The notes below the pieces were generated by a model. It ran no database searches. It saw nothing but the letters and a program-made list of their open reading frames with translations, and had not been told where the DNA came from. From the NCBI RefSeq assembly GCF_042100115.1, contig NC_091272.1, positions 1,736,001-1,800,000 on the forward strand: a stretch of DNA of 64,000 nucleotides. The letters run 5' to 3'. Shown piece by piece: positions 44,678 to 57,782 of the stretch. A program made the position numbers and the translations under genes. The DNA is from Alternaria dauci (taxonomy: Eukaryota; Ascomycota; Dothideomycetes; Pleosporales; Pleosporaceae). Each line of letters begins with the position of its first letter. Position 1 is the first letter of the stretch.

Positions 44678-45200
44678 TCGATGTGTCTTAGAGCATAATG
44701 GATGGGTGTAATAGAGCTAACATGTGCGTAGATTCCCTACCACCATCACCGCCGCGGGTAACCGCATACCGCAGCACCTCCCTCCGGTGTTCACCCAGCC
44801 GGGGGAGGAAGTTGCTCCCCCATCCGAATGGGATGAATCGGTGTTTGTCGTGCGTCCTTGCACACCTCCACTCCAGCTGTCGCGACCCTCCCTACCTTTC
44901 ACACCTCCGCCAAAGGAAAAGGAAGTCGAGGCCGCAGATCCCAACGAGGAAGGGGAGGACACTGGAGTGGAGGTGGCGCTGAAGAAGAAGCGAACAAGGA
45001 AGGAGAAGGGGGATGATGCCCTACCCAAGAAGAAGACCAAGGTACGTTCTGTACAGGCGGATTTAGGTGACACTTCCATTTAATTTGTATCTCACATTTA
45101 CTAGGCTGCCGAGAAGAAGGGCGAGGACAAGGAGAAGAAGAAGAAGAAGAAGAAGAAGGACAAGGAGAAGAAGGACAAGGAGAACGTGCCTCCGGAGTGA
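44658..45200 (+). CDS. Small Lys/Glu-rich hypothetical protein
   Basis: Three exons (44658-44662, 44732-45041, 45105-45200) encode 136 residues. The first exon supplies only ATG-AA; a GTGAGT donor, a GAGCTAAC branch and a GCGTAG acceptor join it to exon 2 to read MKFPTTITAAGNRIPQ. Exon 2 is Pro-rich, then acidic and basic (EDTGVEVALKKKRTRKEKGDD). Exon 3 is almost entirely Lys, Glu and Asp (a run of eight Lys) and ends ENVPPE. The family is unknown; composition suggests a disordered nuclear or nucleolar protein. A GTG at 44,724 keeps the frame open, so another start cannot be ruled out. The AAG run at about 45,139-45,168 is a coding microsatellite. Confidence 0.6.
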
Positions 45201-46803
45201 ACATGGTTTTTTTGGTTTTTGGTAATGGAATTCAGGTTCACGACGCCGTGTGTCTTCTTTTTTGCCAATGTCTGCTTGCTACCGCAGAGGATCACTGACC
45301 TGGACAGATACCGCACGCGGAACAACTCGTAATCTAGCATTCGAAGAGCGAAGACAAGGCGATTCGTGAAACAGACGACGTCGCCGAATCATGCGAGGAA
45401 CCCACGAAATCCAGCCAAACTGTAGAACAAACATACCTAGGTACGACGTACTTACAGCTAAGCAAGTCAAGGATAGGGTCATACATGACGAGCTTTTGCA
45501 GCCAGGGTGTGTTGTTAACGGGCCTGGGCTACTACCAACGACCGCACAAGACGCTCAGGCGCTCAGTGCTAATCTCAGGGAGGAGGAGGAGGCGCTTCGC
45601 AAGCGTTTCATTAATCAGGTCATTCACTGCGCTTCCGCTGCGCAACCTCGAAGGAAGCTTTAAACTTGTCGTCGCTGTCGCCGTCGCAGTAGTTTCCCCA
45701 GAGAATGAACAAGGGGGTTTGTGGGGACCCCACCTTTTCTAGCTATGGTGAAATTGGGCTGATGGGTGATCACAAGAGACGGTGACGTTGTTTGGTGTTA
45801 TACCAGAATGTCGGAAGGATACTTACGTCGGCGGTGGACATTACTGTAGATCGGTAGTGCGCCCCACTTCGTCGGCGACTCTTTCCTTGCGATGATGATC
45901 AGGGTTAGCGTCCTGTCTAGCGTCTGCCTATCTAGACTTCTTCAGTAATTCTCGCCGCCACGTCCACTTTGCTCGGCAGTTTTTCCCTCAGGATGGTCTG
46001 CTTTGAAAAGACGTTTACCCAACTGGACGACAGCACTGCGCGGAACGACGCGAGGCTAACTATGGGGAATCTGGGGTAGCACAGACATGCTCATGCGCGT
46101 TTTCTGGGGTCTCCGAGCACCCCATACCGTTACCGCGGCCTTTGAAGATGCGGAGACGGGCTTATGACGACGGTGGCAGGGGGGTTGAAGGCTTGCGGTT
46201 TCATTTCAGCCTCTTAGAAGCTTATTTCGCGGGTCAATGACACGCAACCTGACATCGGAAGAGCAAGATTAGGGTCAAGGTATTCATCGAGCTTCCACTA
46301 CCGATTCTTACGATCTGTAGCAGAGCAGCTCGGCCAGTCTCGGACGCAAGGGTCCCACAGAAACTTCGAGCGAACCTTTCGACCCAAGCGGCGCTGCCTC
46401 AACAGAAGGACCCCCACACGCGCACAACGCGGTCAGATCCAAAGCCACCCAAAAACCAACTGACATGCTCCCAAAAGGTGGTTATCAAGACCAATTAAAA
46501 TGCATTCGCTTGAGGCAACGTCGGCCGCTCTCCATACATAGCATTCAACCCGTCCGTCTTGGCGTTTGCCCCAGGAAATAGCCGGATGAGCGCCTAACGG
46601 CAGTCATATGCCTGGCACTAGCGTTGGCAGATGCTGTACATGGTGTGGGCCCACCGGACAAGAGTTAACGCGACATCAAGCGAGATATCGAAAGTGCATA
46701 AAGCTGTCGATTGCCTCCCCTCAATCACTGCTTCATTCAGGCAGAGCCATTCACTACACCTGGCGGTTTCAGCGCGTCACGAACCATACCACTGAACGGC
46801 ATC
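45201..46803. other. Intergenic, 1.6 kb, no gene recognised
   Basis: One exact TACCTAGGTA lies at 45,434-45,443. A plus-strand frame at 45,391-45,663 (REEEEALRKRFINQV) looks mildly protein-like but has no start context or family. The right end is the promoter of the sugar transporter. Confidence 0.5.
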
Positions 46804-50893: not shown

Positions 50894-52970
50894 CTAAGCC
50901 GGAGAGACGGTCGAGTCAGTAATACCCCATTCGGGTTTCAACGCATTAATGATCCAGGTTGTCGGCCATACGTGGTTTTTCTCGAAATCATCCAGGAGCT
51001 GTACTACCTGTTCCCTTTCTCTGGGGTCGCATACAAGAGGACCCCATATGAAGATGGTGTGGCAGACGGTAATTGCCAATGGAACCGTTTCCTGTGAGCT
51101 ATTACAGGCCCCGCAAATAGCGCGTGCATGTGATAAGATCTGATGCTGTTTGGATTAATGAATGTTTATTCTTCTTGATGGCTGTAGTCCTTACATCTGT
51201 GTCAGAAAGGCTCCCAACATTGCGGATTGCGAACTTGGGACCTGGCTTGTAGCGCAACAGCATAATGCAGGCAAAATGGTAAAAGCCAAATGACACGGCT
51301 GATGAGATTGGGAGCATCAGCGCAAGAATGAGTCTCGGGATGGATACAGAACTTACTATGCCAGTCGGCTGTGAACAGGATCTCAGGGAACGAGCCCCCG
51401 TCGCCGGCTGGACCTTCAAAAATCGGATTGAAACCGTCGGGCCTGTCACGCATCCACGTTTGGACAAGTTCCCATAGCTCAGTCCATCGTCGCATCTTGT
51501 AGGATTTCTCATTTTGTGGCTCCTTGCCATGGAAGCAGAAATTCACGACACATGCAAGATTCCACGTCATTTGGTTCGCCCAAGCGGTCTCCAATCTTAA
51601 TCGCGCCAGCGGGTGTGCATCTCGTAGGGAGCTTGGGGTCGGGTGCAGTTGTAACGAAAAGTCGATATCAGGCGGTTGCTGATTGATGGTGGCATTGTAG
51701 AGACACTGACGAACGTAAACCCAAAAGGCAGCTTCGCGCAGTGTAGGCGCCGATGGATCTACGTAGTGATTTCCTTGAGACGATCGGATAATGGCCGAGC
51801 AGCCTGCGAGATGCTGTTCATCATCAGAACCAGTGCTGGACGGGACTAGAGGTACGTATTAGGGAGGAGAAGCAAAAAGGGTGAGGTAGCACCTACCATT
51901 CAGCTGCTCGTAGAAACGCAGTATGACGATGGCACACAAAAGGGTTTCGTCATGACTAGCAGCTTGCTCATTCAATCGTTCTATGAGCAGGGCAATGCAG
52001 CGCTGGTAGGCCGCTTCCGCTGTTGCATCCTTTCTGCAGTGACGAGCCGCAAAGGACATGACGGCGTGGCACAAGACCGGGCATTGTTTGACTTTTTCCG
52101 GCACGCCCAGTGTAAACTGGCGAGTGGCGTCTGTACAGTCTAGCCAGCGACCAAGATGTTCGGTATAGTGGTGCACCAGTAGGGCCTCTTCATGTGTCAA
52201 TGAAACAGGTTGAGGTGAATATTTTCTCATCCCTTCTGGCGTGTCCTTGCGGCTATGCGAGTGTAAATGTGCTTGCTGCATCGCCTGACGGGTATGCGTC
52301 GGCAGCGAGCCCTCTGACATGCCGTCCGGGTTAGGCGACTGCAGCAGACTCGCCACTGACACGCCACCCGTTGTACTCTTGGACCTAGGAACAAAGTATG
52401 GTGAGCCTGGCGACAACTGAGCCGCTGGTGAGGAAACGCTGGTAGACTGGCCTTCCGATACCCTGTCGGTCCGACTGTTTTTCCGTCGTCCCGGTGAAGT
52501 GTTCCGGCTGAAGCTTCCCTCGCTGAACCTGTTTGCGTGGACGGCTTCATCCACTGTACTGATGCCATCGACTCCATCGACGCCGTCGACTTGCATCATG
52601 TCCCCCTTGGTCTCGGTTTCATCGTCGGTGCCACCGGCAGCAGAACGACTTGACGATGGTCTGTCAGGCCGGTAGTCCTTGAACTTGGTATGTGGCTCTT
52701 CCCATTGGCAAGGACGGTTCTTTTTGCCACAGGCTTTGCATACTGGACGGGTTTCGTCGCCTGCGTGCAGTATCAGCGTAGGAAGGAGCGCTCTGCAACA
52801 AAAGACTCACACTTGACGCGGCGGGCTCGACAGGTAAGGCTTGTGCAGATCAGCGGACTTTGTCACCGTAACCTCATGGGTCCACTTACCAGCCGCTCCT
52901 AGAGCGGAATTTACTGTATACAGTCAGTAATATGTTTCAGCTGTTGGCTGGGTACCGGTACTTACCCCAT
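50894..52970 (-). CDS. Zn2Cys6 fungal transcription factor
   Basis: Seven exons (52970-52966, 52913-52890, 52839-52811, 52760-51897, 51845-51357, 51298-51195, 51145-50894) encode 588 residues. The spliced start MGKFRSRSGCLTCRARRVKC continues DETRPVCKACGKKNRPCQW, a complete binuclear zinc cluster with all six cysteines. The middle is Ser-rich and disordered. The C-terminal half has fungal transcription-factor domain helices (EEALLVHHYTEHLGRWLD, CPVLCHAVMSFAARH, ALLIERLNEQAASHDETLLCAIVILRFYEQL, REAAFWVYVRQCLYNATI). It probably binds CGG-type sites in nuclear promoters. The first three exons carry only 5, 24 and 29 coding nucleotides. Targets are unknown. Confidence 0.93.
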
Positions 52971-55900
52971 ATATAGAAATTCGAATCTAATGTCCGAATC
53001 GAAGTGCACCTGTCGCCGTATTAGCGGATGCCCTGGACTGTGCCCTGCGCCTCGAGCTAGATACGCTACCAGGTAAAACGCTGACCAGGTCTAACGTAGT
53101 CTCGATAACATTAGTCGTTTGCTAATTCGCCAGTACATGTGCCTTGATCTCTGATGCGATGAAAAAGGAGTTGGACCTATCACTGACCTGGCTAAAACAC
53201 TGCTATCCGGTATGTCTGTGGTGTTGGCTAGACCAAGGTGCAACGCCACTTTGTGCCCGTGGAATCGATTGTGTGCTGAGTATACGGTATCCATGCAGAG
53301 CCTATGCTCACTCGGATCAATGCTGCCAGGTGCGCTCGATGTTGGTGGGCCCTGGCTAGGTGAAAGTCAAAGGACGGAACAAGATCCCGCAGCCAGTCAG
53401 AGCCGGCGAAAGCGAGACGCTTGGACCACATATGCTCTGTAGGTGCTTAGGTAAGTGGCTGTCGGAAGAGCTGGTGATTTGCTATGCCCCAGCTGTCTCA
53501 GATGCCTTCTAAACTGCTGGAGAAGAGCGCCTTTGTCCAAAGGTACTGAGGGTCCCACCCAGTCCTCCCCACCCGTCGGTCAAACGTCTCGCCAGACGGC
53601 CACCAACATGCTCCATTCAGCAAGGTCCAGACGCCGTCTCGACTTTGGAAGTTGGAACTTCGCGCCCTCACCAGGCGACCGTTGTTGACGCGTTTGCGGT
53701 CCCGTCGTCCACACATGCGCTCATGAGCGCCCTTACCACGCCACTTCATCCTAGCCGAAACTGTTCACACCTCCCACCCACGGGCTTCTCCAGCCGTACC
53801 TACCTACGAACACCGACAGTCGTACGCCGTCGTCCCCACCGTAATCCCGAGAGAAAACAACTAGATCCGCGTAGCCAGGGCTGACCAGGGTCACTTCTGA
53901 ACGCAGTCAGAGCGTCCCACTGCCTAGCCGCATTCTTGAGCGTAGGCCCGGTAGGCTAGGACTAGGTGCATCCTCCTGTACCCAACTCGTCCGAATTGTG
54001 GGCGCAGCGCCTTCCAGAGACGCACGACTGTTGAACATTCAAGGCCGTGTTCCAACATCTGTGGACTCGGTTTGTATCTTGACCTGTCTGAGCCGCAACA
54101 AACAGGGTCTGGAAGCCAAGACACTCGTAGGAGGAATCGTTCCTACACAGCGCATGACGTGGAATTTCTGCTGTTGCAACGCTATTCCGCCAGCCTGGGT
54201 ATCTGTCGAGTTCATCCCGTGTTTTGTTTCATCGAGTCCTTCCTAGGCATACATATTGTCCGCGAGTTCCGATAATGCAATCCTACACGTACTCGTTTCC
54301 GGACAAGGTTCGACGATACTACAAAGGTTTTAGGATCATGTAGTCGGAACATTCGTCGCCACTTATCAGAACGCGATCTGTATGCCCGAAGACACGGCCG
54401 ACCTACGTCTGAACAGTGGATTGTCTCGGTTGCACGAATTCGTGGAGTCCCGGTTTGTGTACGATACCAAAATGGAACTTGCAGCATTACCTTCCAGTCT
54501 GTACCACGGATCTGGTTTTCATGGTGTGCTTCATAATCTAAAGGCATTAGTGTATACCGTAACAAGACAAAATACACAAGGGAAAAAAATATACTAGCAG
54601 ACTTCGCTGGCCATTCCCTTCGGATATAGGACTTTTAGTGAGCAGACCGTGATCCATGACGTGACCTAAGGATGGTGGTAACTCCATTCAACGATTTTGA
54701 ACCGACTTTTTTGACCGAGACGAGCACAAGACGGCACAATCTGAAGCTTTTTGGATTATCGTTCCTGTCAGTCAAAGTCAAGATCGATCCAAAAAAGCAG
54801 TAGTTCTGTCACCGGTGAGCTCAGCATTGTAAAAAAACAGCCATATAATGCTGGACGTGTGGAGCGATTTCCATGTCGGAGTAAAGCTTCATGCAGCGCA
54901 TCGATCACACGGCAGTCGACAATTCACGGATGCGGTGAGATCGGATTGTCTCCACAAGATCGGCTTTAGCGAAATTGCATGGACCATGATGGCATTTGCG
55001 AGCTACCAACTAGACAGCCTTACGCGATCGGCCGATACGCGGACGTTATATCCGTAAAAGTCTCGGAATGTCTGGCATGCGACAGACCAAGGTATACACA
55101 ATGGAACGGGATTGGTCGAACGCGAGTACGCTCCGCGGAACAGTGGTCCTACCACTGCCTCGCGCTAAGTGCTACACTATGACTTACTAGTGAGGATTCT
55201 CCTCTGGGCCTTTCGTCACGACGATCGAGAGCGTCGGATCGGCTTAAGTAGGTATAGTTGATCATGGCTTGAAGGTAAAGTCAACGTCGGTTCATCAGAC
55301 CCTCAGAAAGGCACAGCTGCCCAAGGGGGAAAGTGTTCGAGTACAGAAGACATGGATACTATGACGCATGATGATTCACCAACATAGGCCTGTAGGGCTT
55401 AAGGCGTGCGCTTGGGCGCCTTGGACGATTCTTTCCGCGCTGGTGTGTACGCATTTCTCCTTCGTACAGGCACCAACACGTGTGATGCAAGCATCAAAAC
55501 ACGCTTGCCATGCGATTTCAATGCGCGACCGTACGTCAGGCTAGACTCCTGGTGTATAGACCACTGTCAGTGTAAATGGTCGAGACTTCCAGATGTGATC
55601 ATTTGATCGCCAGCAAGAGCCAATACCGGAAGTTTACTACCCTCGGCGTCCAGGCGACTTTCATATCTACGTTGCAGCGCTGTAGGGCTACTCAATGACA
55701 ACGTCTAACGTCAATGAAGCACTATACATGCAGAGCAACCTTTAACTACAAAAGTCTTTGCAAGCTCTCGATGGTTCCAATGATGCTCCAACAGGACAGT
55801 GACAAAGTGGAAAGGATTTTGCCATTGACTCTACTGTGCGCATCATACATGTATACTCTGTCCAACTTCTTTCTCGCCAAATTGTTCTCTGTTTCTTTCA

Positions 55901-56171
55901 CTTTCACTTTCACTTTCACCCCCACTTTTACATTCATTTTTGACTTTCGCTTGCCACATCAAGGGCACGTGTTGTTGGAACCGAGCGCAAACACGCTCCT
56001 GCTTCTGGCAGACTCTCACCTTCTTCCTCCTCGGGCACGCTCCGTTTGCATTGATTCGCTTAGGTCCGTACTTGCTCTTATGACCTTTGATCTCCTTCCT
56101 TCCTTCCTTCTTCCTTTACTAACTCCACCCTTTCCTAACACACACAAAGCCACCACGATCAGGCCATCAAC
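52971..56171. other. 3.2-kb gene-free stretch, promoter of the Cys-rich protein at right end
   Basis: No supported gene on either strand. Between about 54.6 and 55.7 kb frames are short and interrupted, as in decayed DNA. Four TTTCAC units lie at 55,896-55,919 and a CT-rich tract at 56,091-56,118, both likely in the promoter or leader of the secreted protein gene. Local GC-rich sequence occurs around 53.5-53.9 kb. Confidence 0.5.
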
Positions 56172-57328
56172 ATGACTCTGCTCCAGCTCTTCAAGATCTC
56201 TGTGCTCTTTCTGCTGGTCGCACTGACCACGGCTTCACCCATCGCAGTTCCCACTACTAAAGGTGTCTCGGTTCCGATCACTGTCCCCAGCGACGTCTCA
56301 ATCGCTATCCCAGCCGGTATCTCAGGCGATGTCTCCGACGAGGTGTCAACTCAGATCAACTGCTATCGCTGTGTATACATCACCCTCTTTTGCAAGCAAG
56401 TTCGCCTCAATGAGGACCAATGCTTCGAATTGCGATGCAAGGATCCTGACGTAAGTTCATTCCCCTAACACTGTACCACCTAGTGTGCGTAGGTTAAACC
56501 TAGAGTATACTAAAACATGAACTCACAATCACGCAGTGCTACCGATGCCGTAATAGTTGCCGCGAGACCCGTCAATTTGATGGCTCCGGCTCTGCTACTG
56601 TCGACAGTGTCGTCGCCGAGAGCTCTCCGACCTCTGTGGCTTCAGCAATGAAGCGCGAGGAAGCAAAGAAGTGCTTCTGGGTCTGCATTCATACATACTG
56701 CACGCGTCAGTGCATCGGCGATGATGCCGTTGCAGCTCTCAGGGCCAATAACGCACTCGTCATCGACGAAGCCGATATGAAAACCGACACGACCATCTCC
56801 GTCGCCTCGAGCCATGCGCAACTGAAGAAGCCTTTTCTCTACCACTGCGACTGGACCTCTGGTATATGCTGGACAGATCCCCCTCGCCAAGCGGTAGCTG
56901 GTACCGAAATCAGGATTGAGGAGATTCCGGATATTCCAACCAAGGTCTGTCGCGAGGTCTGTGCCACGGACGAGTCGCTCTGCGGATTGATCTGTGATGT
57001 GGATGAAAACGAGGACAAGAGTGTCGACTTTGAACAGGCTGACACTGCTTACCGCGGGCCAAAGTGCCACTGGGAATGCATGTTTGGCCAGTGTTGGGCC
57101 GTCTGTGGTCCGATGATGGCTGTCGGCTCCGCGGATGCCAATTCTGTTACGGAGGCATCCTCTCACACATGCAGCTGGGAGTGCTCTTTCGGTCAGTGCT
57201 ATGCATGCTGCGTTCCTCCGACCAAAGGAGAGGTGGCCGAGAAGCGCGGTACACCACCTCGACCCTGTCACGAACGCTGTGACGACGACAAGTGCTGGGT
57301 CGTCTGTCCCCGTCCACCGGTAGAGTAG
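56172..57328 (+). CDS. Secreted Cys-rich protein with repeated Cx3C-x4-Cx3C modules
   Basis: Exons 56172-56450 and 56537-57328 encode 356 residues. The first 22 or so form a signal peptide (LLQLFKISVLFLLVALTTAS). The 86-nt intron (GTAAGT...ACGCAG) joins CKDPD to CYRCRNSC. Exact Cx3C-x4-Cx3C modules are CFWVCIHTYCTRQC, CHWECMFGQCWAVC, CSWECSFGQCYACC and CHERCDDDKCWVVC; a looser one is CREVCATDESLCGLIC. Single pairs include CDWTSGIC. Lys-Arg sites precede two modules (MKREEAKKC, EKRGTPPRPC). No known domain was recognised. A secreted structural, antimicrobial or host-interacting role is possible, but nothing in the sequence decides. It converges with the mL49 gene. Confidence 0.85.
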
Positions 57329-57782
57329 AAGGGCCTTTTGTGGTACGGTAGCCAGCATATGATGATTCTACAATCTCTAACTAACTTTCACTAGTATGAC
57401 GGTTCTGCGAGGTGTTGGAGCACGACGACTATCAGCAGGACAAGAGCGGAGTTGAAGCTCAGTAATGTCGACACGTGGAATGAAGTGTCTGGGAAATACC
57501 GAGGCCTTGTACCAGTGATATAGAGGTACAGATAAAAGCAAACTCATAATAGTAATGCGATTCGGGTGTTTAGTTTGTGACGTCACTTCTATCAGTCGTG
57601 GTGGTGTACAATATGTACAATATGCTCTTTCGTCGCTGCTTGGCGCCTGATGGTAGCCAAGGTTAATCGTCTGCACTCTTTCCCATATGATACAAGTTTT
57701 GCTACAACAGAGGTATACTCGTCTGTACGCTCTGTTCTGCGCTCCATTCTTTTCCCGTGAAACACGTCTCTCCCTTGTGGGA
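57329..57782. other. Convergent 3' region
   Basis: These 454 bp lie between the converging stop codons of the Cys-rich protein and mL49. Nothing else was recognised. Confidence 0.5.

Follow-up and report, generated by a model that had tools for sequence, protein, structure and literature searches.

The described systems closest to the protein reported here are the plant alpha-hairpinins, the tachyplesin and gomesin beta-hairpins, and the fungal Kex2-processed repeat proteins (KEPs). In the sections of the alpha-hairpinin source drawn on here, members with proven antimicrobial activity carry 11-13 residues between cysteines 2 and 3 of the Cx3C-xn-Cx3C core, the published search motif permits n = 4-20, and the same authors tabulate predicted plant peptides with n = 4-7 (PMC11591084). 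The cysteine positions given for five solved members in the excerpt of a second source fit n = 11-13; that excerpt also states that structure cannot be predicted from the arrangement of cysteines alone, and describes plant precursors (Sm-AMP-X and Tk-AMP-X) with several modules in a row (PMC7191063). Tachyplesins and gomesin, known from horseshoe crabs and spiders, are presented in the relevant passages as cationic two-disulfide beta-hairpins occurring as single peptides (PMC10096437, PMC11678162). The letters printed for the tachyplesin-type peptide QS18 show the Cx3C-x4-Cx3C spacing, and the same paper reports this peptide as alpha-helical (PMC11728142); that it is helical despite such spacing counts against reading a fold from spacing. 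KEPs are defined, in the passage used here, by at least three repeats of at least eight residues between Kex2 sites (PMC7329392).

The gene under study belongs to the plant-pathogenic mould Alternaria dauci (Pleosporales, section Porri) and lies in the 64,000-nucleotide stretch of contig NC_091272.1 that was analysed as a whole (the window), whose numbering is used throughout; all the features described are on the forward (+) strand. It is an intact two-exon gene (56172-57328), with the ATG at 56172 and the stop at 57328 in the model obtained by splicing of the window, and its product has 356 residues with 31 cysteines. Exon 1 (56172-56450) encodes residues 1-93, comprising the putative signal peptide and most of an eight-cysteine (8-Cys) block, and the relatives align across it; a phase 0 intron of 86 bp (56451-56536; GTAAGT...CACGCAG) precedes exon 2 (56537-57328), which encodes residues 94-356 and the stop. 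An alternative splice giving 367 residues was rejected in favor of the 356-residue model, because the A. arborescens protein (P0002) is likewise 356 residues long and can be aligned with the spliced product over its full length. The public A. dauci record (ACET3X_000563, P0001) matched the query with 100% identity over 87% of its length; it has 312 residues and ends in CSWECSFV, an end that was reproduced by removing 57192-57394 as an intron. Since P0002, P0003, P0004 and P0010 read through the place of this presumed intron, the public record is probably truncated, with module 6 and half of module 5 missing from it.

The protein starts with a putative signal peptide (residues ~1-22; 56172-56237), judged by eye from a hydrophobic start followed by TTASP; the relatives start alike. 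The secretion proposed from the letters alone is probable. Next comes the N-terminal 8-Cys block (residues 64-101; 56361-56560), split by the intron and predicted to be helical, with the spacing C-x2-C-x6-C-x9-C-x4-C-x4-C-x2-C-x3-C, and then a KR site at residues 132-133 (56651-56656). The four exact Cx3C-x4-Cx3C modules and the looser one counted in the sequence-only reading were all recovered: module 1, CFWVCIHTYCTRQC (residues 139-152; 56672-56713), module 4, CHWECMFGQCWAVC (residues 270-283; 57065-57106), module 5, CSWECSFGQCYACC (residues 305-318; 57170-57211), and module 6, CHERCDDDKCWVVC (residues 337-350; 57266-57307), are exact, while module 3 has the form Cx3C-x6-Cx3C (residues 231-246; 56948-56995). 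A degenerate module 2 (F...C-x6-C...P; residues 193-208; 56834-56881) keeps the inner cysteines only, as FLYHC-x6-CWTDP. Module 6 is part of a 26-residue C-terminal peptide that follows a second KR site (residues 329-330; 57242-57247). The protein has a net charge of -15. Counted together with one or two neighbouring residues, the modules carry charges between -2 and +3; the sole cationic one is module 1, at +3 with the two lysines next to it.

The module spacing was beyond chance. Among 100,000 shuffles of residues 23-356, 98,115 held no exact module, 1,846 held one, 37 two, two held three, and none held four. None of 1,642 stop-to-stop frames of at least 60 aa in 200 kb of the same contig held even one exact module, and a six-frame scan of the rest of the window yielded a single module match, interrupted by a stop codon. 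The pair of modules sharing W-E-C and F-G-Q-C, as first read, proved to be modules 4 and 5, which are identical at 6/10 non-cysteine positions in A. dauci (counted by eye), at 6-7/10 in P0002, P0003, P0006, P0007 and P0009, and at 4-5/10 in P0004, P0010 and P0014; in sequence, these two modules look like internal duplicates. Module 1 shared only 0-1/10 such positions with the other modules and module 6 only 0-4/10, so the modules appear to have spacing in common more than sequence, as would follow from old divergence or from convergence on the spacing.

Fourteen related proteins (P0001-P0014) came out of a database of 5.8 billion proteins clustered at 90%; because the search works on shared five-residue words and in two runs scored only the best 7,994 candidates, it may overlook distant relatives. 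An organism was printed for seven of the 14 proteins, in each case an Alternaria (A. dauci, A. arborescens, A. panax, A. rosae, A. triticimaculans, A. incomplexa and Alternaria sp. Ai002NY15), which is the taxonomic spread so far seen for the family. Only the gene itself was found when the A. dauci genome (34.9 Mb, 10 contigs) was screened for a second copy. The cysteines are conserved between species: 25 of the 28 cysteine columns were invariant, with 98% mean identity to P0002 (columns with at least five letters), vs 95 of the 309 other columns of the same alignment and 67% mean identity, P0002 being both the reference and a counted row. Single cysteines are lost in some relatives: H replaces the first cysteine of the 8-Cys block and S stands in module 5 of P0003, Y replaces the last cysteine of module 4 in P0004, R the last cysteine of module 1 in P0008, R the second cysteine of the 8-Cys block in P0011, and Y a cysteine of module 2 in P0014.

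Whole blocks and modules also vary, as read from gene models. The 8-Cys block is present once in P0002 and P0003, twice in P0006 and P0009 (the second block of P0009 being without its last cysteines), and is missing from P0005 and P0007. P0003 is without most of module 1 and P0005 has a fused module 4/5, two cases that errors in the gene models could explain; P0006, P0007, P0009 and P0014 stop after module 5. In a tree of ten core sequences, with only two of seven inner branches well supported, a single branch (support 98/96) separates the proteins that have module 6 from those without it. The proteins P0006, P0009, P0012 and P0013 carry the 8-Cys block twice, at residues ~38-80 and 142-185, and a third KR site lies between the copies in all of them (4/4).

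The initial statement that no known domain could be recognised was in keeping with the library searches. Pfam-A gave no family at E <= 10 for the 356-aa query, and Pfam and NCBIfam gave none for the related proteins beyond two weak single-member matches, NttC (E 0.0042) in one of the ten aligned family sequences and GEO12453p1-like (E 0.98) in another. A sequence search of solved structures (PDB) had no hairpinin among its matches, the sole one being a troponin C stretch at chance level (E 3.9). This bears on the idea of a metal- or redox-binding cysteine protein, to which the cysteine density and the CxxC pairs of the 8-Cys block would lend themselves; the troponin C match carries no weight for it, the secretory route is oxidising, and the spacing suits a disulfide ladder, so we consider this function extremely unlikely. 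A secreted structural or cell-wall protein, cross-linked through its odd cysteine, would agree with the odd number of cysteines (31), the acidic charge and the repeated modules, but Pfam gave no family for the query and no GPI-like hydrophobic tail was seen by eye at the C-terminus; such a role appears very unlikely.

Two AlphaFold2 models were obtained, one for P0002 from six sequences (model 1; mean pLDDT 36, pTM 0.23) and one for A. dauci residues 134-290 from ten sequences (model 2; mean pLDDT 54, pTM 0.49), the latter leaving modules 5 and 6 outside. Model 1 is not all strand, the 8-Cys block being helical. Strand-turn-strand elements were predicted for modules 1, 2 and 4 in both models, for module 6 in model 1 and for module 3 in model 2, while in model 1 module 3 appeared as a helix plus a strand and module 5 as a single strand. 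Read by hand from the element lists, the turn lies midway between C2 and C3 in modules 1 and 2 (both models), 6 (model 1) and 4 (model 2), within half a residue of it in module 3 of model 2, and one residue off in module 4 of model 1; because the gap between the strands is centred between C2 and C3, C1 would face C4. Most Cx3C-x4-Cx3C modules are thus predicted as two-disulfide beta-hairpins (C1-C4, C2-C3) with a two-residue turn. By blocks of model 2, the pLDDT was 75-76 for module 1, 42-59 for module 2, 46-60 for module 3 and 36-40 for module 4, so that the prediction has fair confidence only around module 1.

The tandem mini-hairpins suggested by the sequence-only reading therefore stand in part: strand-turn-strand hairpins are predicted by both models, whereas the alpha-hairpinin fold gave way to beta-hairpins. 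The view that the modules are helix-loop-helix units resembling alpha-hairpinins, which might mimic defence peptides of plants, could draw on the common Cx3C-xn-Cx3C core, on the passages in which the motif and the predicted peptides extend down to n = 4 (n = 4-20 and 4-7; PMC11591084), on the multi-module plant precursors excerpted in PMC7191063, which resemble the several modules per secreted precursor found here, and on the x4 peptide QS18, reported as helical in PMC11728142. The comparison fails on loop length, as had been suspected from the letters: n is four in four modules and six in one, against 11-13 in the proven members of PMC11591084 and the five solved ones of PMC7191063, as far as the quoted sections go. 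A gap of four residues seems too short for two antiparallel helices, the arrangement of alpha-hairpinins, and strands are predicted here at most modules, at low confidence away from module 1. We regard an alpha-hairpinin fold as very unlikely.

Another likeness is to tachyplesin and gomesin, which share the Cx3C-x4-Cx3C spacing and whose C1-C4, C2-C3 beta-hairpin fits the predicted register of most modules, in models of low pLDDT. Unlike these strongly cationic single peptides, the fungal protein is an acidic precursor of six modules, with a charge of -15 overall and -2 to +3 per module, and the likeness is one of spacing and predicted fold. Its acidity makes it unlikely that the protein lyses membranes as tachyplesins do.

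The KR at residues 132-133 was invariant in 7/7 aligned rows (the reference P0002 among them), and a KR before module 1 was present in 9/9 database proteins having this stretch (P0001, P0002, P0004-P0009 and P0014). This count includes P0001, which is the A. dauci gene itself, and P0008, in which a frame shift follows at a later point; the stretch is missing altogether from P0003, and P0010-P0013 do not extend to the site. All five proteins having module 6 (P0002, P0003, P0004, P0005 and P0010) carry a KR before it. The 20 residues before the first KR, in contrast to the site itself, had 55% mean identity and only one invariant position (1/20), and the linkers between modules 3-4 and 4-5 had 48% and 43%. 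In the alignment, the KR sites before modules 1 and 6 are invariant at domain borders and lie inside variable linkers. Further dibasic sites in A. dauci are KK 137 and KK 190, and there are none between modules 3, 4 and 5; unshared KR sites occur in P0002 (190, inside the core), P0004 (11), P0008 (7) and P0011 (111). An apparent signal peptide (by eye) and KR at module borders are also features of KEPs; unlike the at least three repeats between Kex2 sites of the definition as excerpted from PMC7329392, the two KR sites here enclose modules 1-5 together and set apart module 6 by itself.

Taken as a whole, the protein may be a secreted Kex2-type Alternaria precursor with mostly beta-hairpin modules, in which modules 1-3 belong to a core, modules 4-6 are beads, and cleavage at KR releases extracellular peptides; we give this reading a probability of about 0.5. 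Its parts would be an 8-Cys helical head, one conserved core with modules 1-3, hairpin beads (modules 4-6) predicted to sit on variable linkers, and the 26-residue C-terminal peptide. Kex2 in the Golgi would cut after KR132-133 and KR329-330, yielding the free 8-Cys head, the core with modules 1-5 and the 26-residue module 6 peptide. In what is the weakest step, these products may be protease-resistant and have an extracellular action, either within plant tissue or on microbial competitors, presumably as binding or inhibitory peptides rather than as cationic membrane-lytic ones. The spacing beyond chance, the difference between cysteine and other columns (98% vs 67%) and the invariant KR sites argue for the precursor; the weak models (mean pLDDT 36 and 54), a spacing that does not fix the fold, the unconserved KR sites elsewhere, the odd cysteine count (31), the loss of single cysteines in relatives and a charge unlike that of membrane-active hairpins argue against it.

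A second explanation, less likely than not, is that of one globular, apoplastic effector-like domain, the modules being structural hairpins in a larger disulfide fold and the KR sites removing only the 8-Cys pro-domain and the tail. Fungal effectors are known to include some whose pro-domain is cleaved off at a Kex2 site. The best-predicted part of the protein (residues 134-173), formed by the first four ten-residue blocks of model 2 (pLDDT 75, 76, 85 and 79), comprises module 1, the helix that follows it and one more strand, and residues 153-192 show 65% mean identity, above the linkers between modules 3-4 and 4-5; conservation of the region following module 1 resembles that of a folded domain, which fits this explanation. 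Modules 4-6, however, are carried by variable linkers, the fused module 4/5 of P0005 and the missing module 1 of P0003 (gene-model errors being possible in both) do not suit a single fold, and fold searches returned no convincing match.

The placement of the gene at the edge of a gene-poor accessory segment, as first proposed, is weakly founded, because several Alternaria species have retained the gene and its right-hand neighbours are housekeeping genes (Img2 and an eIF3 N-domain gene); PGAP2IP also lies on that side. To the left is a candidate transcription factor, whose Fungal_trans_2 match (19.8 bits) falls slightly below the cut-off of 21. Dinucleotide indices gave no signal of repeat-induced mutation in the two bins holding the gene; among 18 one-kb bins, that at 45001 was the only one passing both usual thresholds, and that at 53001 touched them. 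The former bin (45001-46000) also holds an AAG-rich tandem array (45112-45184), and the latter falls in a stretch (52807-55698) without any stop-to-stop frame of at least 150 aa. A CTTTCA array of ~9.5 copies with 67% matches (55895-55952) lies within pyrimidine-rich sequence, some 220-280 bp ahead of the start codon.

A literature search on hairpins, Kex2 and Alternaria effectors, performed on open-licence PMC articles, did not have this protein described among the matches listed, the one match to the exact spacing or the locus tags being a paper on ferredoxin, and a description elsewhere is possible. An extracellular effector-like role, or one in antimicrobial competition, would fit a secreted, cysteine-stapled protein so far known from a single genus of plant-associated fungi. 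Tentatively, and at less than even odds, we propose a modular precursor of two-disulfide beta-hairpin peptides that would be the first from a fungus: restricted to a genus, adding and losing whole beads and releasing the last of them through Kex2, convergent with animal beta-hairpin peptides, non-cationic and probably target-binding. If the modules are independent disulfide hairpins, the fungus would have arrived at a genetically encoded hairpin-peptide scaffold of its own, a natural parallel to the tachyplesin-type hairpins but without their positive charge, which would be useful for studying the protease-proofing of secreted peptides and the rise of effector-like families within one genus.
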